DNA from: Rhodocyclaceae bacterium
Lineage (GTDB): Bacteria > Pseudomonadota > Gammaproteobacteria > Burkholderiales > Rhodocyclaceae
Length of the DNA stretch: 64,000 bases
Direction of reading: 5' to 3'
Assembly (NCBI GenBank): GCA_020445745.1
Contig: JAGRGB010000125.1
Span: forward strand, 1-64,000
In this document: positions 23,545 to 32,588 of the stretch, piece by piece
Position numbering within the stretch: position 1 is the first letter of the stretch
Layout of the letters: every line of letters starts with the position of its first letter
Notes under the pieces: model-generated
What the model saw: only the letters and a program-made list of their open reading frames with translations
Told to the model about the DNA's origin: nothing
Databases searched by the model: none
Position numbers and translations under genes: made by a program

Positions 23545-23550
23545 CCAGCG
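23545..23550. repeat. Target-site duplication, left copy (CCAGCG)
   Basis: Six bases directly outside the left terminus repeat exactly at 31914-31919 outside the right terminus. In the empty-site reconstruction one copy encodes part of the tupB RRW codons. Confidence 0.8.
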
Positions 23551-23574
23551 TGAAGCGCGCCGGGATAATTGAAG
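23551..23574 (+). repeat. Left terminal inverted repeat
   Basis: This 24-bp terminus starts TGAAG and ends in GGGATAATTGAAG (23562-23574). Aligned without gaps to the right terminus it matches at 18 of 24 positions, and the inner 13-mer differs at one base. Confidence 0.85.
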
Positions 23575-23584
23575 CCATTTCTGC

Positions 23585-23597
23585 AGGATAATTGGAT
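23585..23597 (+). repeat. Second end-type motif, left side
   Basis: AGGATAATTGGAT lies 23 bp inside the terminal copy GGGATAATTGAAG in the same orientation. It is probably a second transposase-binding site. Confidence 0.6.
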
Positions 23598-23653
23598 TCC
23601 TTCGCGGTTTTGCACAGCCTAAACGAATTGAGCACGGCTAAACCAGAGCCGAG

Positions 23654-23690
23654 AAAAATGACGGGCGAGAGGTCGATTGACCCTCGCCCG
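23654..23690 (-). terminator. Rho-independent terminator of the capsid operon
   Basis: CGGGCGAG (23662-23669) pairs with CTCGCCCG (23683-23690), with four more pairs (GGTC/GACC) above a one-base bulge. On the minus strand a TCATTTTTC tract follows. It stands between the last element gene and tupC, so it should block read-through into tupC. Confidence 0.75.
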
Positions 23691-23700
23691 AGAGACCAGT

Positions 23701-23723
23701 CAGTGACCCAGTGCGGGTCACTG
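23701..23723 (-). terminator. Second hairpin after the last element gene
   Basis: CAGTGACCC and GGGTCACTG form a perfect 9-bp stem with a 5-nt loop, 7 nt after the stop of the second capsid gene. It lacks a U-tract and may protect the 3' end or assist termination. Confidence 0.5.
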
Positions 23724-23730
23724 TTTGCCA

Positions 23731-24798
23731 TCAAACGACCGCGTTCTTATACATGCCCCGGTAGTCCAGCACGGTGCCGCCGTAGGCGTGGCGGATCTTG
23801 TAGATGATCTTGTCGTGGCTGAAGAGACTGCCGTCGCTTGGAGCGTCGGCGGTAATGATCTCGGGCGCCTCCCGGCCATTGAGGAATCCGATCTCGATGG
23901 TGGGGCAGTACTGCGGATCGTTGACCACGCACCAGTCGTTGGCGTCGGTCCAATACGGCACCGGCAGCACCTCGGGCAGCAGCGCCGAGGCCTGGGATAC
24001 TTCGCGCTGGCCGGACACGAACGCGGTGAACGCGGCCTCCTGAAGGTCGAGCGGCACCACCAGGTACTTTCGGCCGAAGCCGATGCGCTTGCCCGAGCCC
24101 GGCCGGGTCTGCTTGCCGATCGCGGTGGCGGCGGCGAAGTAGGCCGAGGTGTCCAGCGCTGCGGCGCCGAGGTTGCCGTGGGTCGCGTCAAAGAGCGCCA
24201 CGCCGTCATAGATCAGCGGGTTGGTGCGCAGGAAGTCGAAGACGAACTCATAGAGCGTCATCGCCGCCGAGCGCGCCAGCTCGGCCGGCACGCGGCGCAC
24301 CGCGCCGGCATCGTCGTTGGCCAGCATCTCCAGCGTGATGCTCTCGGTGCCGCCGCGCTTGGAAAGGCTGTAGCTCGCGTTGTCGTCGCCGGGGCTGTCC
24401 AGCGCCGCGTAGGCGCCTTGCTCGGCCACCGCCGGCAGATTGGGGTAGCCGCCGATGCGCGTGCCGTGCTGCGGGCGGAAGGACTTCACCGGCACCGGCC
24501 GGGCGATCTTGCGCCAGGCTTGCAGCTCGGGCATGTCGTCGATCTCGGCGTGCACCCGTCGCTCGATCGCGTTGCCCAGGGCGACCGCCCAGCTCGTCGA
24601 GTCCAGCGCCTCGACGAAGGCCGCGCCGAAGTGCTCCCGCATGCGGGCCGGGTCGCAGCGGGCGAACTCGCCGCTCACGCCATGGTCGCCGGTCAGCACG
24701 ATGTAGCACTCGCGCAGCGACAGCCGCTGTCCCGCGAAGAACTCATCCAGCAGCACATCGGCCTTGCTGCGGTCCTTGTTGCCGTTCAGCACCTTCAT
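23731..24798 (-). CDS. Second phage major capsid protein (paralogue of the fusion's capsid domain)
   Basis: The 355-residue protein aligns over its whole length with residues about 313-667 of the protease-capsid fusion encoded upstream, itself 355 residues. Shared blocks include SPGDxxAxYxxxKRGGTES, NTLYEFVFDF/MTLYEFVFDF, RTNPxIYDG and the C-terminal ITYKIRHIYGGTV / IIYKIRHAYGGTV. It lacks the protease and linker. This is the HK97-fold, Mu gpT-like capsid group. The start ATG 24798 has TTGAGG upstream; an earlier ATG at 24816 overlaps the previous gene. Divergence is spread along the sequence with no broken codons, which argues for a functional second subunit rather than a decaying copy. Confidence 0.8.
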   Translation of the reverse strand: MKVLNGNKDRSKADVLLDEFFAGQRLSLRECYIVLTGDHGVSGEFARCDPARMREHFGAAFVEALDSTSWAVALGNAIERRVHAEIDDMPELQAWRKIARPVPVKSFRPQHGTRIGGYPNLPAVAEQGAYAALDSPGDDNASYSLSKRGGTESITLEMLANDDAGAVRRVPAELARSAAMTLYEFVFDFLRTNPLIYDGVALFDATHGNLGAAALDTSAYFAAATAIGKQTRPGSGKRIGFGRKYLVVPLDLQEAAFTAFVSGQREVSQASALLPEVLPVPYWTDANDWCVVNDPQYCPTIEIGFLNGREAPEIITADAPSDGSLFSHDKIIYKIRHAYGGTVLDYRGMYKNAVV

Positions 24799-24802
24799 GG
24801 CC

Positions 24803-25006
24803 TCAAGCCCCCTCATCGTCGCCGACGATCAGCAGCGAGCCGCGCCGGTAGCGCGCGGGCTCGTGGGGCGGGTGCTCGCTGCGCACCAGGCGCAGCCGGA
24901 ACACCCCGGCCACCTGCACCGGCAGATTGCCGGGGTAGTCCTCGAGGCAGGCGATCAAGTCATCGACGGTCTCGATGCCTACGGATTCGGTCACTTCCAT
25001 GCTCAT
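24803..25006 (-). CDS. Small phage protein between the two capsid genes
   Basis: The 67-residue product begins MSMEVTESVGIETVDDLIACLEDYPGN and ends LLIVGDDEGA. It has a helical N-half and a beta-rich C-half, and is acidic. AGGGAG lies 10 nt before the ATG at 25006. It overlaps or abuts the second capsid gene and follows the fusion gene by 28 nt. By position it could be a decoration, head-stabilising or scaffold-type protein, but no family is recognised. Confidence 0.6.
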   Translation of the reverse strand: MSMEVTESVGIETVDDLIACLEDYPGNLPVQVAGVFRLRLVRSEHPPHEPARYRRGSLLIVGDDEGA

Positions 25007-25034
25007 CTCGCGGTCTCCCTTGCGCTTCGTGCGG

Positions 25035-27038
25035 TTACACCACCACGGCCTTGGTCGCGGCCTTGCCACCGTCGACCGGCACCGTGCCGCCGTAGATGTG
25101 GCGGATCTTGTAGGTGATCACGTCGTTGCTGAAGAGCGATCCGGCGGTGGGCATGTCCTGGACGAACAGCTCGGGTTCTTCCTTGCCGTGCAGGAAGCCC
25201 ACCTCGACCGCCGGCAGCCGCGCCGGGTCGCACACCGTGCACCAGTCGTTGGCATCCGACCAGTAAGCCACCGTGATCACTTCCGGCTTGATCGCCTGGA
25301 CGAAGTCCGCATCCAGGTTGGTATCGCGCTGGAACAGGTTGTAGGCGGTCTCTTCCAGCTCGAAAGGCACCAGCAGCGACTTGGGCTTGGTGCCCAGGCG
25401 CTTGCCGCTGTCGGCGCGCGTTTGCTTGACCATCGCCAGGCGGTGGGCCGAGAACTCGGCCGGCGTGAGCGCCGCTGCGAACAGGTTGCCGCGCGAGGCG
25501 TGGAAAAAGGTCGTGCCGTCGTAGATCGCCGGGTTGGTGCGGAAGAAGTCGAAGACGAACTCATAGAGGGTGTTGGCCGCCGCCAGTGCCAGCTCGTCGG
25601 GGATCATCCGTACCGAGTTCACATCGTCGTTGGTGACCGCCTCGATCGACACCGATTCGGTGCCGCCGCGCTTGGCCACCGCATAGGTCGCCTTTTCGTC
25701 GCCAGGGCTCGCCAGCGCCGTGTAGGCGGCCGACTCGGCCACCGTGGGCAGGTTGCCGAAGCCACCGATGCGCAGCCGCTCCTGCGTGCGGAAATCGCCC
25801 ACGGGCACCACGCTGGCCACCTTGCGCCAGGCTTTCAGGTCGGTCTCGCCCTGATACACCTTCAGCATGCGCCGGGTGATCGCGTCGCCCAGCACCTTGG
25901 CCCAGCTCGTCGACAAGACTGCTTCGCGCAACTGCAGGCCGGCGGCCTCGCGCAGCCGGGGCAGGTCGCAGAAACGCACGTCGCCGGTAATGTCCCGGTC
26001 ACCGGTCACCTCGATGTAGCACTCTCGGAACGACCGTACCTTGCCGTGGTTCTTGTGGGTCGGGTCGAAGAAGGCATCCATCATGTCGGCAACCTTCTTG
26101 CCGCGATCCTCCACTTCCAGGTCGCCGAAGTCGCCCATCGTCGGCTTGCCGCTGTCGGTCGCCCGCGCCAGGTAATGGCGCTCGGCCTCGATCGCGTTGA
26201 TCACCTGCTTTTCCGTGAAAGGCTCTTGCGCCCCGGTAAAGCGCTCCAGCAGCCGCGCCTTGCCGTAGGCCGGCAACTTGGCCGCCTCGATTACCTGCTT
26301 GGCCTTGCCTTTGGCATCGTTCAGTGCCTTCTCGGGGTCTTCGCGGTCCTTGCTCTTCAACTCGGCCTCGACCACCTCCCGGTAGTCCTTGGCAAGCTGC
26401 TCGTCGGATACGTCCTCGCCCGTGTAGTCGGGCCGCTTGGCCTTGATGGCCGCAATCATGATCTCGCGAAGCTCCATCGCTCCCTCCGTCGCATCTGAAT
26501 TCTTGTCGCCGCCCGCGGCGGCCTCGATTACCGTCACCAGCTCGCCGCCCGCGCCGGGCTCCACGATCAGGTCCACCGAATGCACCTTGCGGATCGTGGT
26601 CACCCGCTTGGCCCGCACCCCTTCTACCAGGCTCGGCTCTCCCATCCCGGCCGCGTCGATCGAGAAGCCGAAGAGGTGCGAGAGCCCGCGCGAATAGGCG
26701 CTGCGCAGCTTCTGCGCCACCGCCCCCTCGGGCTCGATCAGTGCCAGCTCGGCCACGATCTGGCCGGCGTCCGCCGAAGGGCCGCCCTCGACGAAGCGCA
26801 CCTTCGAGAGCCCGCCGATCAGGTTCTTCACCGACTTGCCCTGCCGCTGCAGGTGCTCGGCGTCCGACTTCTCGAACACGCGCACGCCTTCGAGCAAGGG
26901 CACCATCTCGCGCAGCACCGCATCGGGGTAATAGTTGGCGTTCTTGGACAGCCCGGCCCGGATCACCCGAATCAACCAGCGCCCACCGGCCCCACCGTCG
27001 ATCGCTTCCATGAAGCTGCCGGGGATGGCCACCTTCAT
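25035..27038 (-). CDS. Prohead protease-major capsid fusion protein
   Basis: The 667-residue protein has three parts. Residues 1-175 form a phage prohead protease: GLSKNANYYPDAVL opening, His62 in KSDAEHL and Ser126 in LFGFSIDAAG at the catalytic positions. Residues 176-312 are a charged, helical linker rich in Glu/Lys, resembling a scaffold or delta domain. Residues 313-667 are an HK97-fold, Mu gpT-like capsid domain. Fused protease-capsid genes are known in phages; cleavage of the linker would release mature capsid subunits. GGAGG lies 5 nt before the ATG at 27038, which overlaps the mor stop as ATGA; an upstream GTG at 27050 is less likely. Confidence 0.85.
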   Translation of the reverse strand: MKVAIPGSFMEAIDGGAGGRWLIRVIRAGLSKNANYYPDAVLREMVPLLEGVRVFEKSDAEHLQRQGKSVKNLIGGLSKVRFVEGGPSADAGQIVAELALIEPEGAVAQKLRSAYSRGLSHLFGFSIDAAGMGEPSLVEGVRAKRVTTIRKVHSVDLIVEPGAGGELVTVIEAAAGGDKNSDATEGAMELREIMIAAIKAKRPDYTGEDVSDEQLAKDYREVVEAELKSKDREDPEKALNDAKGKAKQVIEAAKLPAYGKARLLERFTGAQEPFTEKQVINAIEAERHYLARATDSGKPTMGDFGDLEVEDRGKKVADMMDAFFDPTHKNHGKVRSFRECYIEVTGDRDITGDVRFCDLPRLREAAGLQLREAVLSTSWAKVLGDAITRRMLKVYQGETDLKAWRKVASVVPVGDFRTQERLRIGGFGNLPTVAESAAYTALASPGDEKATYAVAKRGGTESVSIEAVTNDDVNSVRMIPDELALAAANTLYEFVFDFFRTNPAIYDGTTFFHASRGNLFAAALTPAEFSAHRLAMVKQTRADSGKRLGTKPKSLLVPFELEETAYNLFQRDTNLDADFVQAIKPEVITVAYWSDANDWCTVCDPARLPAVEVGFLHGKEEPELFVQDMPTAGSLFSNDVITYKIRHIYGGTVPVDGGKAATKAVVV

Positions 27039-27382
27039 GCCGGCCTCCACTGCTTCTCGCGCCGTACCTTGGCGATGATCCGGCGAACCATCATCACGCT
27101 CAGGTCGTACGCGCGGGCCAGCTCTTCGTAGTTGCTGCCGTTGAAGGCCTTCCAGATCTCGGCGTTGCGCTCGGCGATGCGCCCCGTGGATTGCTTACCG
27201 TTCGGGATGTAGACCGGCACCCCGCCGCCCAGGCTGGTGCGGACGTCCTCGCCGCACTCGGCGCCGACCTCGTCGGCCTGCTCCTTGTCCATGCCCCGGC
27301 GCTGCAGCCGCCGGGACACCGCATCCGCGATTAGCGTGAGCACCAGCTCGCCGCGGCTTTCCTTCATTTCGGGCACTGCCAT
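27035..27382 (-). CDS. mor: Mor/C-family transcriptional activator
   Basis: Mu Mor and C are small DNA-binding activators that turn on middle and late phage promoters. The 115-residue protein has the family's C-terminal region: AERNAEIWKAFNGSNYEELARAYDLSVMMVRRIIAKVRREKQ with the helix-turn-helix at about 78-108. The N-terminal half carries DAVSRRLQRRGMDKEQADEVG, matching the dimerisation region. It is directly upstream of, and overlaps, the protease-capsid gene. The name is by family, not proven orthology. Confidence 0.85.
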   Translation of the reverse strand: MAVPEMKESRGELVLTLIADAVSRRLQRRGMDKEQADEVGAECGEDVRTSLGGGVPVYIPNGKQSTGRIAERNAEIWKAFNGSNYEELARAYDLSVMMVRRIIAKVRREKQWRPA

Positions 27383-27409
27383 GACACCCCCTGCAGTTCA
27401 AGTAAGAAC

Positions 27410-27440
27410 GGGTGGGAAGGCCTTGTGAGCCTTCCCACCC
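27410..27440 (-). terminator. Perfect 12-bp hairpin in the mor leader
   Basis: GGGTGGGAAGGC and GCCTTCCCACCC enclose a 7-nt loop. On the minus strand the structure ends 28 nt before the mor ATG with no clear U-tract. It may terminate the upstream operon or act as a leader attenuator. Confidence 0.55.
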
Positions 27441-27503
27441 GAGGAGGTTGGGGGACGTGAAACCCCGCCTCCCGAGGAGAACGAGGCGGATCGTCGGCGA
27501 CCC

Positions 27504-27531
27504 TATAAATCGGCGCCACTAAACTGGTTTA
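27504..27531 (-). promoter_or_regulatory. Candidate mor promoter and operator
   Basis: On the minus strand a TTTATA -10-like hexamer (27504-27509) lies just downstream of the inverted repeat TAAAC-TG-GTTTA (27520-27531). The repeat is placed to act as an operator or activator site about 120-150 nt before mor. Nothing else was seen in the 27383-27709 gap beyond this and the hairpin. Confidence 0.4.
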
Positions 27532-27709
27532 CTCGAAGGTCTCAGCCCCAGAGCTACGCGCCAGCCCGGCAACGGTCGCCGACCACGCGTGCGCGTGGCA
27601 CCAGCAGGCCCGCACGACACGTGGCAAACCGATTTCTCGGGCGCGATGGGTGTCGGTAGCACCCAGACCCGAAAAACCGCTCACAGGGCCGCAAATCGCG
27701 CCGGGCATG

Positions 27710-27910
27710 TCAGCCCCGCACGTCCAGGTACAGCAAACCGTCCGCGTGGCGGCAGCGCGCCAGGCTCAAGCCCTCGTGCCGCGCCAGGCGCAGCCGCAGC
27801 CGCAGCGCCCCCGAGCGCAGCACTGCGCACAGGCGCACCCGCAGCCGATCGCGGGAGGCGTTGCGGATGAACTCGGCCCGCAGTTGGCGCGCGTAGTCGT
27901 GCTCAAGCAT
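27710..27910 (-). CDS. Small basic phage protein
   Basis: The 66-residue product is very arginine-rich (MLEHDYARQLRAEFIRNASRDRLRVRL, then alternating RLRLRLAR). Its start overlaps the stop of the preceding 216-residue gene by 8 nt, which supports translation. It might bind nucleic acid, but composition alone does not prove this. No family recognised. Confidence 0.5.
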   Translation of the reverse strand: MLEHDYARQLRAEFIRNASRDRLRVRLCAVLRSGALRLRLRLARHEGLSLARCRHADGLLYLDVRG

Positions 27911-28553
27911 CGCCGCCCCCTTCGCCCACCTGGGCAAGCTCGCGCCGCACCGAACGGACGAAGCGCTCGCTGCGCTTCGCAATCCGCTTGGTCGCCTTCG
28001 CCCGCTCGGGCGTCATCACCGCCGGACCGAGGTCCACGCCCTGGATGATCTGCACCTCTACCACCAGCCCGCGCCGCTGCAGAGCCGCCCTCAGGTCCTC
28101 GAATCGGCCGGCGAACTCCGCGTGTTCAGTGGCGATCGCATAGACCCGGCTGGCCACCTTCTGCAGGTGCTCGATCGGCGTATCGGGCAGGCTCGCCAGC
28201 GTCATCGCCTCCAGCAACTCGGCCAGCAGGCCCTCGCGCGCCTCGCGGTCCCGGTCGAGCTGGTAGATCTGCCTCAGCTCGCCCTCGATGGCGTTGATCT
28301 CGCCGTCGTAGTGGTGCGGCAGCAGCTCCAGCGCCAGGTCGACAAGGCATTCCGCGTCGCTGGCCTCGTCGGCATCGACGCCGTCGAGGCGGCTCCACCG
28401 CTCGATCATCCCGGCGTGCAGTGCCCTCAGCACCGCCCGAGCCCGGCGCACGCGCTCGCTCGCCTCGTTGAGATGCTCTTCGGCTTCGTGGGTGATTGAC
28501 CGCGCCCGCTCGGAAAATCCGAGCCCATCCACCTTGCAAGTCGTCGCGTTCAT
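27903..28553 (-). CDS. Helical phage protein of unknown function
   Basis: The 216-residue protein is almost entirely helical, with probable coiled coils at about 15-45 (ARSITHEAEEHLNEASERVRRA) and 80-115. It has an acidic middle and a basic C-terminus (ERAKATKRIAKRSERFVRSVRRE). Its ATG overlaps the stop of the 501-residue gene by 4 nt. No domain recognised. Position between the antirepressor-like gene and mor suggests an early function. Confidence 0.65.
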   Translation of the reverse strand: MNATTCKVDGLGFSERARSITHEAEEHLNEASERVRRARAVLRALHAGMIERWSRLDGVDADEASDAECLVDLALELLPHHYDGEINAIEGELRQIYQLDRDREAREGLLAELLEAMTLASLPDTPIEHLQKVASRVYAIATEHAEFAGRFEDLRAALQRRGLVVEVQIIQGVDLGPAVMTPERAKATKRIAKRSERFVRSVRRELAQVGEGGGDA

Positions 28554-30055
28554 TTCGAGCCCTCCCGGCCGAGCCAGAAGCGCGCGTGAAGGTCGTAACG
28601 GGCGGCCTGCAGACCTGGGGCATAGCGCCTCTCGGCGATCTCCCTCGCTTCGTCCTCGATCGCCTGCACCAAGTCATCGACCTCGCTGTCTGTCGCGTAC
28701 CTCAATATGAGCTTGAGCAATTCGAGACCGTAAAAGCGGCGCTTTCCCAGCGTCGCCCCGGCCGGCGCCGCCAGCTCGTCGACGCGCACCAGCAAGTGGC
28801 GCGGCAGCCGCTCGTTCCCCAGGCCCTCCGGCTGCGGCGATCCATCATCCCATGCCACCGAGCACGAGCTGTCGCCGTACACTTTGACAACCCGGCCTGG
28901 CCGCGCGGCGAAGGCGCTGCGCACCCGGTCGCCGGGGGCCAGGTCCGCCCCCTCGTCGCCGGCCGGGCCGAGGCGCGCTTCGTTCAGGTCGTGGATGCTC
29001 GCCTTGACGGCGGCAGCGGCGGGCTCGGGGGAGATTGGCGGCTCAATATTGAGCCGCGAAGCGTCGCGGTCGCTGGGCTCAATTTTGCGCTCAGTGGCGG
29101 TCTCAGGGTTCATCGCCATGCCGCCGAGCTTCAGCCACCGCAGCACCAGGCGCCCAGCCGTCTCACGCTGCGGGAGGCGCGCATACAGCGCCACGCATTC
29201 CGCCAACAATTCGACCCCGCGCGGGGAAAGCAGACGAACCGGATGCGGAAAGCCCGAGGTCATAGCCATTACCGTGAACTCGTCGCCTTCGAGCTTGTAG
29301 CGGCTCAGCAAGCGATGGACCTCTCCCTTGTCGAAGCCAAGCCCCAATATCTTGGTCACATCGGTCAGACGCATCCATGCCGCGCCACGGAAGGAGAGCA
29401 AATGAACATGCTCGCCGTTGACCACATCCGACCGAAGATAGTCCGCCTTGCCCACGACCTCGCCCGACCCTTCGGCGCCGGTCTGCGACTCGTCGCTTGC
29501 GGATTGGCCCTTGGGCAACCCACCCGCGTTTTCGGGAATCACCACGGCCTTCGCCCGCCGGGTTTCGATCGCATCGGAGAGCACCGGGCGCAGATGTTCG
29601 ACCTTCTTGAAACTCATGAGGTCTTGCACGCGCAGATTTTCGAATTCGCCGGATTCGAACAGCTCTGACAACTCTTCGGCTTCGAGCCGGCCGAGCATGC
29701 CGACACGCCAGCGCCCCAGCCGGGTCAGTCTTTCCATGGCCTCGGCGGACAGATTCGCTTCCTGAACCTTCGTGGCGGCTCTCACCACTTGATTGGCCCA
29801 CGCGGGCTTTACGCCCACCTGTTCGAGCGAACGGTGATATTTCCCGCCCCGCCCGGCGATCCCGCGCAAGCGGACGATCAGATGGCCGGCTTCAAGCATG
29901 GACTGGACCGCATCCGCCGGGCCGTTGGTCTTGTTGTCGAGCTGGACTCGGATCTGCTTTATCAGCTCGCCGAGCGCTTTGTCGCTGGAATGTGCGGGCG
30001 CCTGCGCGCCCTCGGGTGCCGGCGTCTCGCCGGACTTGTTGAAGAGATCAGCCAT
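28550..30055 (-). CDS. DUF3102-like / antirepressor-like multidomain phage protein
   Basis: The 501-residue protein looks modular. Residues about 25-130 resemble DUF3102/ParB-like helical domains (MLEAGHLIVRLRGIAGRGGKYHRSL then PAWANQVVRAATKV). Residues about 205-310 resemble an antirepressor N-domain (LLSFRGAAWMRLTDVTKILGL, then FPHPVRLLSPRGVELLAECVALYARLP). After a Pro/Ala linker, 370-430 may be a KOW-like beta unit (APGDRVRSAFAARPGRVVKV), followed by a helical tail. It heads the leftward operon. The combination suggests a switch protein that binds DNA or a repressor. Domain calls are by eye. Confidence 0.6.
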   Translation of the reverse strand: MADLFNKSGETPAPEGAQAPAHSSDKALGELIKQIRVQLDNKTNGPADAVQSMLEAGHLIVRLRGIAGRGGKYHRSLEQVGVKPAWANQVVRAATKVQEANLSAEAMERLTRLGRWRVGMLGRLEAEELSELFESGEFENLRVQDLMSFKKVEHLRPVLSDAIETRRAKAVVIPENAGGLPKGQSASDESQTGAEGSGEVVGKADYLRSDVVNGEHVHLLSFRGAAWMRLTDVTKILGLGFDKGEVHRLLSRYKLEGDEFTVMAMTSGFPHPVRLLSPRGVELLAECVALYARLPQRETAGRLVLRWLKLGGMAMNPETATERKIEPSDRDASRLNIEPPISPEPAAAAVKASIHDLNEARLGPAGDEGADLAPGDRVRSAFAARPGRVVKVYGDSSCSVAWDDGSPQPEGLGNERLPRHLLVRVDELAAPAGATLGKRRFYGLELLKLILRYATDSEVDDLVQAIEDEAREIAERRYAPGLQAARYDLHARFWLGREGSK

Positions 30056-30347
30056 GATGGCCTCCTATGCTTCGATGACTAGTCGAATCGCCCCGAAGGG
30101 CGGCCGGGTGCTAGTCACTGAGCACAGGGTTCAGCCGGTTGATTCCCCCCCTTGCGGAGGGTCTTGTATTCACCGACACCCGGCCATGGAAACTGATTGA
30201 TAGCCCTTCCGACGACGGATCACGGGCGCAAAAAAACCACGGCTGACGGGCGTGGGGCGTTGCCGCCTGTACCTGGAGTGACTAGCTCCATCCGCTTTCA
30301 CGGACAGACGAAGGGTAAGCGATCAGAGAGCTAAAAGCAATCGATGT

Positions 30348-30363
30348 GGATACAATAATACCC
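30348..30363. promoter_or_regulatory. Operator-like palindrome O1
   Basis: GGATACAATAATACCC is an imperfect version of the palindrome at 30387, 39 bp further on. Repetition with a shared GGATA-N6-TA(T/C)CC form suggests paired repressor sites. Confidence 0.45.
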
Positions 30364-30386
30364 GCCGCGCCGTCAAACGCGCGCCC

Positions 30387-30402
30387 GGATAAAATAGTAT
30401 CC
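30387..30402. promoter_or_regulatory. Operator-like palindrome O2 overlapping a -10-like sequence
   Basis: GGATAAAATAGTATCC has perfect GGATA/TATCC arms and includes TAAAAT, a plausible -10 for the gene at 30420. Binding here would repress that gene. Its GGATAA half resembles the terminal motifs of the element. Confidence 0.5.
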
Positions 30403-30419
30403 GCTGTGAGGAGCCACCC

Positions 30420-30983
30420 ATGAAGCTTCATGTCTCCCTGCGCGGGAAGCGCACAACCGTCACGATCCCGGATGAACTGGCGTGGTTGATGATGGCCCGG
30501 ATCAACTGCCTAGACTCCCAGCTTGGCAACCCCACAGGGCTGCGCAAGTGGATTCAGAAGACACTGCGCCGCGAGTCCGACCATGTGCCGGAACGGATGC
30601 TAAGCCAGTGGCTGCAGGCGCGGATAATCAATGAAATTGCCGATCCGGCCCTGCTCCCGCGACGCGATGGCATCGTTTGCCTCATGCGCGGCTTTGCAGC
30701 CACACGCAAGAACCCGGCGCTGGTTGCCATGGACAGCTTGCCGAGCGCGAAAGATATCGCGGAACTAGCTGACGTCCCGCCAGCCTCCTCGCCTCCAACG
30801 GCAAAGGCGAAGACTCCTCGCAACCGCTTGAAGCCACAGCACGAGACCACGCCCAATGACCCATTGGATCTGTCTCGAATCGGCCCCGCCGAAGGCGAAG
30901 ACATGGCCACCGCCGTCGCGAAGTCCATGCGTAAGGCGCGGTTGTCTCCCAAGGCCCGACCCGGGAAACCGCAAGTCGCGTGA
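30420..30983 (+). CDS. Divergent phage protein, possible regulator
   Basis: The 187-residue protein opens KLHVSLRGKRTTVTIPDELAWLMMARI, a strand plus helix reminiscent of ribbon-helix-helix proteins. A helical region RKWIQKTLRRESDHVPERMLSQWLQARI follows, then a disordered Pro/Lys/Ala tail. GAGGAG lies 8 nt before the ATG. It is the only long gene of the element on the plus strand, and palindromes overlap its promoter, so it may be the element's repressor. No family is firmly recognised. Confidence 0.6.
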   Translation: MKLHVSLRGKRTTVTIPDELAWLMMARINCLDSQLGNPTGLRKWIQKTLRRESDHVPERMLSQWLQARIINEIADPALLPRRDGIVCLMRGFAATRKNPALVAMDSLPSAKDIAELADVPPASSPPTAKAKTPRNRLKPQHETTPNDPLDLSRIGPAEGEDMATAVAKSMRKARLSPKARPGKPQVA

Positions 30984-30993
30984 AGCGGCATTA

Positions 30994-31025
30994 CCTCAAA
31001 TCGTGCGTCAACGCACGATTTGAGG
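30994..31025 (+). terminator. Perfect 14-bp hairpin after the divergent gene
   Basis: CCTCAAATCGTGCG pairs with CGCACGATTTGAGG across a TCAA loop, 11 nt after the stop codon. It lacks a long U-tract but is exceptionally stable. Confidence 0.6.
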
Positions 31026-31081
31026 AAGCAACCCGCCGCGCGAAGCGACCCTGATCGAGTTCGTACTTGGCGGCACGGTGC

Positions 31082-31109
31082 AAAAAAAAACGGCCAAATT
31101 GGCCTTTTT
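31082..31109. terminator. Bidirectional rho-independent terminator
   Basis: GGCCAA-A-TTGGCC is flanked by nine A residues on the left and TTTTT on the right, so each strand gives a stem followed by U. It lies between the convergent genes at 30420 (+) and 31165 (-). Confidence 0.75.
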
Positions 31110-31164
31110 CACGAACGGTTCTCCATTTACACCGTCGCAGCCAGACCCGCCACATTGGCGATTT

Positions 31165-31428
31165 TCAGTAGTCATCTCGGTCCCGCCACCGAGCGTTCCT
31201 GACGGCCCGCGCTGCCGCCAGCTCGCGACACAGCCACGCCGTCGCCTTGCGCGCCTCCCGGCCCAGCTCGGGCGAGCCTTGCCAGGTCTTCGCCGTCAGC
31301 GCATCCTCCATCGGCACCAGGTCGGCGCCGCACTGCATCTCCACGCTCGCCGCCAGGTACAGCCACGCCTGCGCCAATGCGTTCATCTGCCCTTCGATCT
31401 GCGCCAACCGCGCCTGAGTGCTGTCCAT
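31165..31428 (-). CDS. Small phage protein near the right end
   Basis: The 87-residue product, starting MDSTQARLAQIEGQMNALAQA, is helical with a likely N-terminal coiled coil and a basic C-terminus. A slightly longer start at 31464 is possible. It is followed by the bidirectional terminator. No family recognised. Confidence 0.55.
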   Translation of the reverse strand: MDSTQARLAQIEGQMNALAQAWLYLAASVEMQCGADLVPMEDALTAKTWQGSPELGREARKATAWLCRELAAARAVRNARWRDRDDY

Positions 31429-31581
31429 GGTCCGCCCCTCGCTGAGTTCCGACGCACCCAGCATAGGCCCGCAAACCAGTCTTTCACCGCTTCCAGCCCG
31501 CTATTTGTTTCGACCCGACTCGCCAGTCCGGCTTCCAGAATCCCAGGCACTTAGCCCCTCGCCACCGGCTACAATCGAGCC

Positions 31582-31752
31582 ATGACCGCCGACAACCGCC
31601 CCCGCATGCTCACCCCCGCCGAGGTGAAGGCCCTGCGCGACTCGAAACGCCAGATCCACCGCCGGGTCGATGAACTACAGCAGCGCCCCAAGGCGACGAG
31701 CGCCCAGCCGCAACCAAAGGCAACCCATCACAGTCGATCGGGCGACGACTGA
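31582..31752 (+). CDS. Very small basic protein near the right end
   Basis: The 56-codon frame starts MTADNRPRMLTPAEVKALRDSK and continues as a charged helix, then a Lys/Gln/Ser tail. The first half looks protein-like (TPAEVKALRDSKRQIHRRVDELQQ). GAGC is the only upstream purine stretch, so expression is uncertain. Confidence 0.4.
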   Translation: MTADNRPRMLTPAEVKALRDSKRQIHRRVDELQQRPKATSAQPQPKATHHSRSGDD

Positions 31753-31766
31753 AGACCTCTTCGATT

Positions 31767-31784
31767 TGTGCCGACGTCGGCACA
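31767..31784. promoter_or_regulatory. 18-bp perfect palindrome
   Basis: TGTGCCGACGTCGGCACA is fully self-complementary with no loop, which suits a dimeric regulator site better than a hairpin. It sits 15 nt after the small gene and about 130 bp inside the right terminus. Confidence 0.45.
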
Positions 31785-31826
31785 TTTGCCCGACCCTCCC
31801 GGCCTTTTGCCCTGTGCAATTCTTTT

Positions 31827-31869
31827 TATTTTTTATCCCATTCGTTCCCAAAATTTTCCTGTGTATCCC
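31827..31869 (-). repeat. Second and third end-type motifs, right side
   Basis: Reading inward from the right end, GGGATACACAGGA (31869-31857) and GGGATAAAAAATA (31839-31827) repeat the core of the terminal motif in the same orientation. The region is AT-rich, unlike the rest of the window. Confidence 0.55.
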
Positions 31870-31889
31870 ATTTTTCCTGCTCACTACCC

Positions 31890-31913
31890 CTTCACTTATC
31901 CCTTCCCCCCTCA
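31890..31913 (-). repeat. Right terminal inverted repeat
   Basis: Read inward on the minus strand this terminus starts TGAGG and ends in GGGATAAGTGAAG (31902-31890), matching the left end at the same spacing. Its first three bases now serve as the tupB stop codon. Confidence 0.85.
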
Positions 31914-32588
31914 CCAGCGCCGGATGTGGAAGGCCGCGGCGTTGAGTGCCAGCACGACGCTCATCAGCACGATGCCCAGCGCGATCGCCAGTGGCAGGTC
32001 GCCCTTGCTGGTCTCGAGGGCGATCGCGGTGGTCATCACGCGGGTCACGTGGTCGATGTTGCCGCCGACGATCATCACCGCGCCGACCTCCGACATCGCC
32101 CGGCCGATGCCGGCGAGCAGTGCCACCAGCAGCGAGTGTCGGCAGTCGTGGATCAGCGTCGTCACGCTCTGGCTGCGGCTGAAGCCCATCACCCGCAGCT
32201 CCGGCGCGTAGTCGCGCCAAGCGTCCTCGACGATCTGGCGGCTCAGCGCGGCGATCAGCGGCACCACCAGCATCATCTGCGCGATCACCATCGCGCCGGG
32301 CGAGAACAGCAGGCCGAAACCGCCGAACGGACCGGAGCGCGACAGCGCCAGGTAGACGACGACACCGACCACCACCGAAGGCAGGCCCATCAAGCCGTTG
32401 ACGACGACCACCAGCAGGTTGCGCCAGCGGAACTCCGCGACCGCCAGCCAGGCACCGAGGGGCAGCCCGATCAGTGCCCCGAGCAACACCGCGGTCATCG
32501 ACACCCGCAGCGACAGCCAGACGATGTCGACCAGCTTGCTGTCGAAGCTGCCGAGCAGTCGCAGGGCTGCGAACAAGGTGTCGCTCAT
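31911..32588 (-). CDS. tupB: Tungstate ABC transporter permease TupB, C-terminus altered by the insertion
   Basis: The 225-residue permease has about five transmembrane helices and the TupB signature AMSEVGAVMIVGGNIDHVTRVMTTAIALETSKGDLPLAIALG. TupB moves tungstate across the inner membrane with TupC. The reading frame now ends at a TGA supplied by the element terminus. In the reconstructed empty site it would continue six more residues (AMRRYA) to a TGA overlapping the tupC ATG. Losing six terminal residues is probably tolerable. No binding-protein gene tupA is adjacent; moeA is divergent upstream. Confidence 0.87.
   Translation of the reverse strand: MSDTLFAALRLLGSFDSKLVDIVWLSLRVSMTAVLLGALIGLPLGAWLAVAEFRWRNLLVVVVNGLMGLPSVVVGVVVYLALSRSGPFGGFGLLFSPGAMVIAQMMLVVPLIAALSRQIVEDAWRDYAPELRVMGFSRSQSVTTLIHDCRHSLLVALLAGIGRAMSEVGAVMIVGGNIDHVTRVMTTAIALETSKGDLPLAIALGIVLMSVVLALNAAAFHIRRW
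31914..31919. repeat. Target-site duplication, right copy (CCAGCG)
   Basis: This is an exact repeat of 23545-23550, lying within the last codons of tupB. Confidence 0.8.

Follow-up and report, generated by a model that had tools for sequence, protein, structure and literature searches.

Small elements with Mu-like ends as probable satellites of transposable phages

A 64,000-nucleotide stretch of DNA from a Rhodocyclaceae bacterium (assembly GCA_020445745.1, contig JAGRGB010000125.1, positions 1 to 64,000; this whole stretch is hereafter the window) carries at positions 23551-31913 an element of 8,363 bp, which is very probably a member of a family of phage satellites living on Mu-like transposable phages. 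That it might be the satellite of such a phage had been proposed in a first-pass annotation made from the letters alone, and the proposal is now supported by a total of 15 bounded elements and by helper prophages with similar ends. The bounded elements measure 6,306-17,251 bp and lie at unrelated sites, each within its own 6-bp duplication; the 14 further ones come from the same bacterial family, from IMG/VR contigs, from plasmids and from Escherichia coli. They lack a full set of virion and mobility genes, recur as a lineage of their own and have a helper that is either present or plausible. An E. coli relative, in strain SK0832, is moreover found as the same element at a new site, which is the behaviour of a non-autonomous transposon moved in trans.

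Ends, empty sites and the bounded family

Both termini of the window element open with TGA and carry boxes of the GGGATA/GGATAA/GGAAAA type. The left end (23551-23598, plus strand) has two GGATAA boxes behind its terminus, and its first 12 bases are those of the right ends of the full phages in genomes G139 and G086; the right end (31830-31913, minus strand) has several GGGATA/GGAAAA boxes. The 6-bp repeat CCAGCG, to which no strand is assigned, adjoins the element as left and right copies of the target duplication (23545-23550 and 31914-31919). Beyond it lie an ABC-transporter ATPase gene on one side and the last codons of a permease gene on the other (names by reading of the open reading frames, ORFs). 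The empty site is gap-free and contiguous in three genus mates (400/400 bp aligned in G104, 399 in G170 and 390 in G140), and therefore the element has been inserted there with a 6-bp duplication. In G049 369 bp of the region align at 70%, with gaps, and in G194, among the genus mates compared, the flanks of the site had no match. The repeats and the three empty sites thus bear out the complete termini, the target duplication and the multiple end boxes of the first-pass annotation.

Ends were sought with a script requiring T followed by G or A, ten bases, a box, a second box and an exact 6-bp repeat. It returned a single pair for the whole 64 kb of the window, and 20 block-shuffled versions of 249 kb gave no pair at all; the motif had been learned from the window and phage ends, so that the conservation of the box bases is partly by construction. 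A chance origin of the ends was rejected on account of the empty sites in the genus mates, in E. coli K-12 and in E. coli ZH063 (see below). One copy of the element was seen in its own genome, where a pattern search gave 0 matches with a pattern that was too strict.

In other genomes of the bacterial family, tblastn with the proteins of the window element revealed co-located relatives of its Mor-family activator and of the ORFs o99, p501 and o216, and no match to the transposase of the Mu-like prophage on contig C163 of the window's genome was found within the 13-80 kb read around them. The end script gave exactly one pair each in the window, G333 (7,797 bp), G309 (13,397 bp), G248 (13,462 bp) and G103 (17,251 bp). 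Run with a longer size range, it delimited the termini of full phages in G139 (40,569 bp) and G086 (41,878 bp) and returned no pair in ten further stretches with phage sequence, the majority of them incomplete. Among 399 genomes of the order, the o99 profile found the window's genome only, plus one weak match with two stops; in IMG/VR it led to 51 loci. The elements L104 (7,700 bp, duplication GAAAGT) and L101 (6,306 bp, duplication GCTGAA, right end located via the repeat) were also bounded. The IMG/VR scan with p501 gave no match and that with its C-terminus three contigs already known and no new member, and the p501 queries had no match in the phage collection.

A p501-type query matched plasmids of Pseudomonas aeruginosa, Citrobacter and Enterobacter hormaechei (6 records). 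By megablast the Citrobacter element matched 33 of 5,426 complete E. coli genomes at 36 places, all chromosomal; at least 80% of its length is covered in two of these genomes, both being assemblies of strain AW1.7. When a part of the AW1.7 element served as query in a distant search, 35 genomes were reached, of which two matched over no more than 59 bp. The script assigned exactly one pair of ends with a 6-bp repeat to each of three plasmid loci and five E. coli loci. Outside the bounded counts stand L106 with its contig L157 (no script pair, left end not found), G311 (spread over two contigs) and G352 (0 pairs). The expected finding of several elements with the same gene set at unrelated sites thus held for the elements and their sites, but the gene set proved to be a shared core with a variable part, and the sizes span 6.3-17.3 kb instead of the about 8-9 kb foreseen.

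Several loci have peculiarities of their own. Both ends of the G248 and G309 elements begin with TA instead of TG, as does an end of the phage co-resident in G309. G248 carries an extra gene pair (L062:7005-9077), which we take to encode a three-Cys-motif partner protein and a Gp37/Gp68-type protein, and G103 has a stretch similar to this pair. The E. hormaechei member (L156:7030-13953) sits on the IncFIB plasmid pFJMB80062_2, presumably a phage-plasmid, and four Enterobacter plasmid records match. L106 (about 6.1-10.96 kb) is a small unbounded member of ~5 kb among tail genes that, by ORF reading, resemble a P2-like prophage. In AW1.7 (L158) a second place matches the Citrobacter element. The p501 relative of G311 (L049:2469-4454) carries, fused to its C-terminus, a segment with a match to the MuB-type ATPase encoded by the C163 prophage, and contig L048, near it, has capsid, portal-like and minor-head-like genes; this locus may be a larger or composite element.

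Movement in Escherichia coli and resident Mu-like phages

The clearest traces of movement come from E. coli. For the elements of AW1.7, CX21, KCJ3K291, SK1144 and VREC0864, the corresponding sites of K-12 MG1655 are unoccupied, and the 6-bp target is present there once (294/294 bp aligned in all five, 95.9-98.6% identity). SK0832 carries two copies of its element, without a difference over 6,374 bp and with different repeats, GATGTA and CATACT. The first copy is also present in SK1144 and ZH063, again without a difference; the second (L170:7904-14277) interrupts brxC of a BREX phage-defence system, and in ZH063 this second site is empty, with brxC intact and the 300 bp on either side matching exactly and contiguously. 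An annotated IS5-family transposase gene lies inside the SK0832 element, but it is the Mu-like ends that delimit the new insertion.

In both SK0832 and ZH063 an ssu gene is occupied by a Mu-like prophage whose annotation lists a transposase or integrase catalytic domain, an ExeA-type ATPase, Gam, DUF3486, and head and tail genes. The ZH063 prophage has paired ends that enclose 38,545 bp and are flanked by the duplication TCTCGA, and in SK0832 the prophage transposase frame is open and 98.8% identical to that of Escherichia phage PhiKM, which is recorded as Bcepmuvirus. The prophage tape-measure gene is annotated as incomplete in ZH063 and not in SK0832. Satellite and prophage ends in these two strains match at 53/60 and 42/60 bases, so that full Mu-like phages sharing the end motifs, anticipated in some strains by the first-pass annotation, do occur beside the elements. 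Compared with six E. coli or plasmid elements, the left end of PhiKM shares 19-20 bases out of the first 24 and 26-37 out of 46. Of the 5,426 E. coli genomes, 635 match the PhiKM transposase region, 571 of them over at least 80% of its length; on the three plasmids no PhiKM-type transposase was found, in a search set that included no genome known to match.

The window's own genome has the C163 prophage, in which ORF reading identifies a 598-aa transposase, a MuB-type ATPase, a large terminase, a portal, minor head proteins and a protease-capsid protein. Its left end (C163:10499) matches the right end of the window element at 39/46 bases, and the left ends in G139, G086 and G150 do so at 27, 24 and 27 of 46. 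Among nine genomes of the bacterial family, the C163-type transposase is present in the window's genome (G000), G309 and G333. The ends of the co-resident phage and of the satellite agree at 37/46 bases in G309 and 35/46 in G333, and this phage has related capsid (66%), protease (66%) or tail-completion (66%) proteins. A second Mu-type region of the window's genome, on contig C42 (L009, L010), contains a DDE_2-type transposase gene; no element-like ends were found there.

The sequence comparisons support the view that these ends are used to the base with a 6-bp duplication, and that a copy was made recently in a lineage bearing a Mu-like prophage whose ends are similar. Since the elements have terminal transposase sites and no transposase of their own, the DDE transposase of a helper would have to act in trans; transposition of this kind is supported by the precise 6-bp-duplicating insertions, the similarity of the ends to those of resident phages and the recent SK0832 copy.

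Shared genes, variable genes and rival explanations

Gene content was compared by tblastn with proteins of two helpers against the 15 bounded elements and two helper controls. None of the 15 elements matched the queries for transposase (five queries), MuB (two), large terminase (two), portal (two), sheath, tube or Gam; in the controls every query matched at least once, except the C42 transposase, which matched in neither. A Mor match was obtained in 15/15 elements and the p501 C-terminus in 14/15 (not in G333). The protease domain is present in 14/15, and the fifteenth, L154, has two genes annotated as 'phage protease'; the satellite proteases retain the conserved domain without most of the C-terminal half of the 371-aa PhiKM protein. 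Other virion genes are scattered: a capsid match in the window element and G309, a tape measure in L155, L156, L158, L159, L160, L163, G309 and G248 (and in G103 by ORF reading), a minor head gene in L104, a tail-completion type gene in G248, G103, L104 and G333, and a Gp27-like gene in 5/15 (L101, L155, L158, L159, L163), as well as in G248 by Pfam, with none found in the window element. All five bounded E. coli elements have the protease domain and four a tape-measure gene, and the SK0832 capsid query had no match in them. A transposase occurs in 47 of the 51 IMG/VR loci and o216 or the p501 C-terminus in three; the two are never found together, and L123 has neither; o99, which led to all of these loci, was accordingly rejected as a satellite marker.

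We consider it unlikely that the elements are transposons only, moved in trans and left unpackaged, with virion genes that serve as anti-phage decoys or lie idle. It is true that all the direct evidence bears on transposition and not on packaging, and that the copy which moved in SK0832 is devoid of the tape-measure and Gp27-like genes present in other E. coli members. Yet the virion genes are conserved, including a protease domain that stays complete without the C-terminal half, Gp27-like genes occur in several members, and the spread over distant hosts and plasmids needs transfer from cell to cell.

Still less credible, and very improbable in our estimate, is a decayed Mu-like prophage, a relic in which internal deletion has removed the transposase along with the genes for packaging and tails. 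Phages are indeed the source of the end sequences and of the capsid, protease and Mor genes, the closest relatives of the capsids are found in full phages, and some members contain insertion sequences. However, the adjoining of Mor to protease or capsid genes is an order unlike that of the full phages read, the identical loss would have struck 15 elements with intact ends, and the p501 C-terminus, so widely kept among them, never accompanies a transposase in the IMG/VR loci. A single internal deletion from a full-length prophage is not what is seen, and a deletion relic is disfavored by the recurrence of the elements, by their signature sequence (the p501 C-terminus) and by the recent second copy in SK0832. 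A self-mobile element with a recombinase of unrecognized type, for instance p501 or o216, which have no informative family in the Pfam/PHROGs scan (o216 has no fold match either), is the least probable of all, given that o216 is present in 7/15 elements only, that the p501 C-terminus is missing in G333, and that the ends resemble those of resident Mu-like phages, whose transposases suffice.

Several observations weigh against the satellite reading itself. Besides o216, o99 too is confined to 7/15 bounded elements, and the virion genes vary from member to member. Insertion sequences lie inside members (IS5 in L161/SK0832 and, by ORF reading, an IS21-type gene in G103), and some copies are therefore eroding. 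No C163-type transposase was found in G103, G248, G311, G352, G260 or G286, so that several genomes carrying the element or p501-like sequence are now without such a helper. The C163 prophage is cut by the contig end at 37116, shortly past its capsid gene, and its right part is unassembled; a tape-measure query from G139, a single protein, had no match in the window's genome. The helper search in E. coli covered two genomes, SK0832 and ZH063. Packaging and remodelling of the virion are conjectural.

Genes of the window element and the satellite mode of life

A scan of nine ORFs of the window element (Pfam, PHROGs) yielded no transposase, MuB, large terminase, portal, tail, lysis or integrase family, and tblastn with the helper proteins gave no match to transposase, MuB, large terminase or portal. 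Apart from that of an integrase, these absences had been listed in the first-pass annotation, as had a Mor-family activator, two capsid genes and the lack of any broken frame, and all of this holds, the ORFs being open. On the minus strand lie cap2, a stand-alone capsid gene of 361 aa (23731-24816; PF25209, E = 4.7e-43), a small ORF of 72-88 aa, depending on the start, without a family in the scan (24803-25069), capP, which encodes a head protease fused to a capsid protein (671 aa, 25035-27050; phrog_29592, E = 1.9e-174; PF25209, E = 1.9e-37), and the Mor-family activator (115 aa, 27035-27382; PF08765, E = 1.9e-21), whose frame overlaps that of capP. The same strand carries o90 (27710-27982), which has no assigned function and a short match in G311, o216, a helical protein (27903-28553), p501 (28550-30055) and o99 (31165-31464), found also in full Mu-like phages. 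On the plus strand are o187 (30420-30983), which is divergent from p501 and has a relative in the same place in L104, and a 56-aa ORF outside the scan (31582-31752), with a partial match between the minor-head and capsid genes of the C163 prophage. The product of o187 may be a repressor, as may that of the HicB-type gene (PF05534) of the E. coli members. A search with the structural model of o216 (predicted template modelling score, pTM, 0.47) gave no fold match at E up to 0.001.

CapP is 62% identical to the protease-capsid protein of the C163 prophage, whose capsid is also the nearest to its capsid part (67%). Cap2 is nearest to the capsids of the G139 and G086 phages (59.5%), in a tree of weak support. 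Its branch (0.87) is long compared with those of the phage capsids, as if it had changed fast or changed its role. With 54% identity to CapP versus 59.5% to the G139 and G086 capsids, and given the weak tree support, a simple tandem copy of capP is not favored.

For a satellite of a Mu-like phage, these genes suggest the following course. The helper's DDE transposase would cut and join the satellite ends in trans, and the operon (p501, o216, Mor, then the virion genes) would probably be switched on with the helper, Mor coupling its expression to the helper cycle. The variable virion genes (protease domain, capsid, tape measure, minor-head or tail-completion protein) would then probably alter helper assembly, and the satellite DNA, copied by replicative transposition, would probably be packaged in particles made by the helper. 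In the window member, the protease-capsid fusion and the divergent capsid would most likely form or skew a shell completed with the helper's portal, terminase and tail. The earlier suggestion that the element supplies its own head is thus to be read as the contribution of a shell protein, because without portal and terminase there is no packaging head alone. We lean slightly towards a more specific picture of 'transposing satellites', natural gene-bearing mini-Mu elements of beta- and gammaproteobacteria that a helper transposase inserts and replicates and whose interchangeable, helper-derived virion genes redirect assembly; the window member, with capsids nearest to different phages, would then build a mixed or altered shell.

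With Mu-like phages (the C163 prophage, PhiKM) the satellites have in common the paired-box ends, the 6-bp duplication, Mor, and the capsid and protease families; unlike them, they have no transposase, MuB, large terminase or portal that could be found (nor, in the window element, tail genes) and measure 6.3-17.3 kb against 38.5-41.9 kb for the three full phages bounded. To our knowledge, those phage satellites that have been studied well either use an integrase for insertion or exist as plasmids. P4, phage-inducible chromosomal islands (PICI), PICI-like elements (PLE), phage-inducible chromosomal minimalist islands (PICMI) and other such satellites have integrases of their own. They resemble the present family in small size, an incomplete virion gene set and an apparent dependence on a helper, and differ from it in that its mobility relies on transposition ends of the helper type. 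Capsid-forming PICI (cfPICI) have an integrase and their own capsid-packaging set. The window element is likewise a satellite-type element with its own capsid gene, but it has the capsid only, with no integrase, terminase or portal found, and Mu-like ends with a duplication, and virion genes vary among the members of its family. Miniature inverted-repeat transposable elements (MITEs) and mini-Mu, an engineered laboratory element moved in trans, share with it ends without a transposase that are mobilized in trans, whereas the satellite family is a natural gene-bearing lineage with regulatory and virion genes. One paper lists P4-like satellites, PICI, cfPICI, PLE, PICMI and others among phage satellites, and treats MITEs (~300 nt, gene-free) as hitchers of transposases (PMC11389934). 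In the accessible part of a study of a Pseudomonas helper-satellite pair, the integrase gene lies in the helper and no Mu-type satellite is described (PMC4936722). Open PubMed Central titles and abstracts, which formed the scope of our literature search (bioRxiv and most subscription journals lay outside it), contained no recognizable description of satellites of transposable phages. Within that scope, then, the satellite mode of life is known and the transposing route is not known to be described.

With matches to one member in 33 and to the PhiKM transposase region in 635 of the 5,426 genomes, E. coli offers itself as a test ground. The question arises how the virion of the helper is affected by a protease domain without its other half, or by a capsid or tape-measure protein that occurs alone. 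If the interpretation is true, a family without a recombinase that borrows the helper's transposase for both insertion and copying would represent a satellite life style not seen before and a link between phage satellites and non-autonomous transposons.

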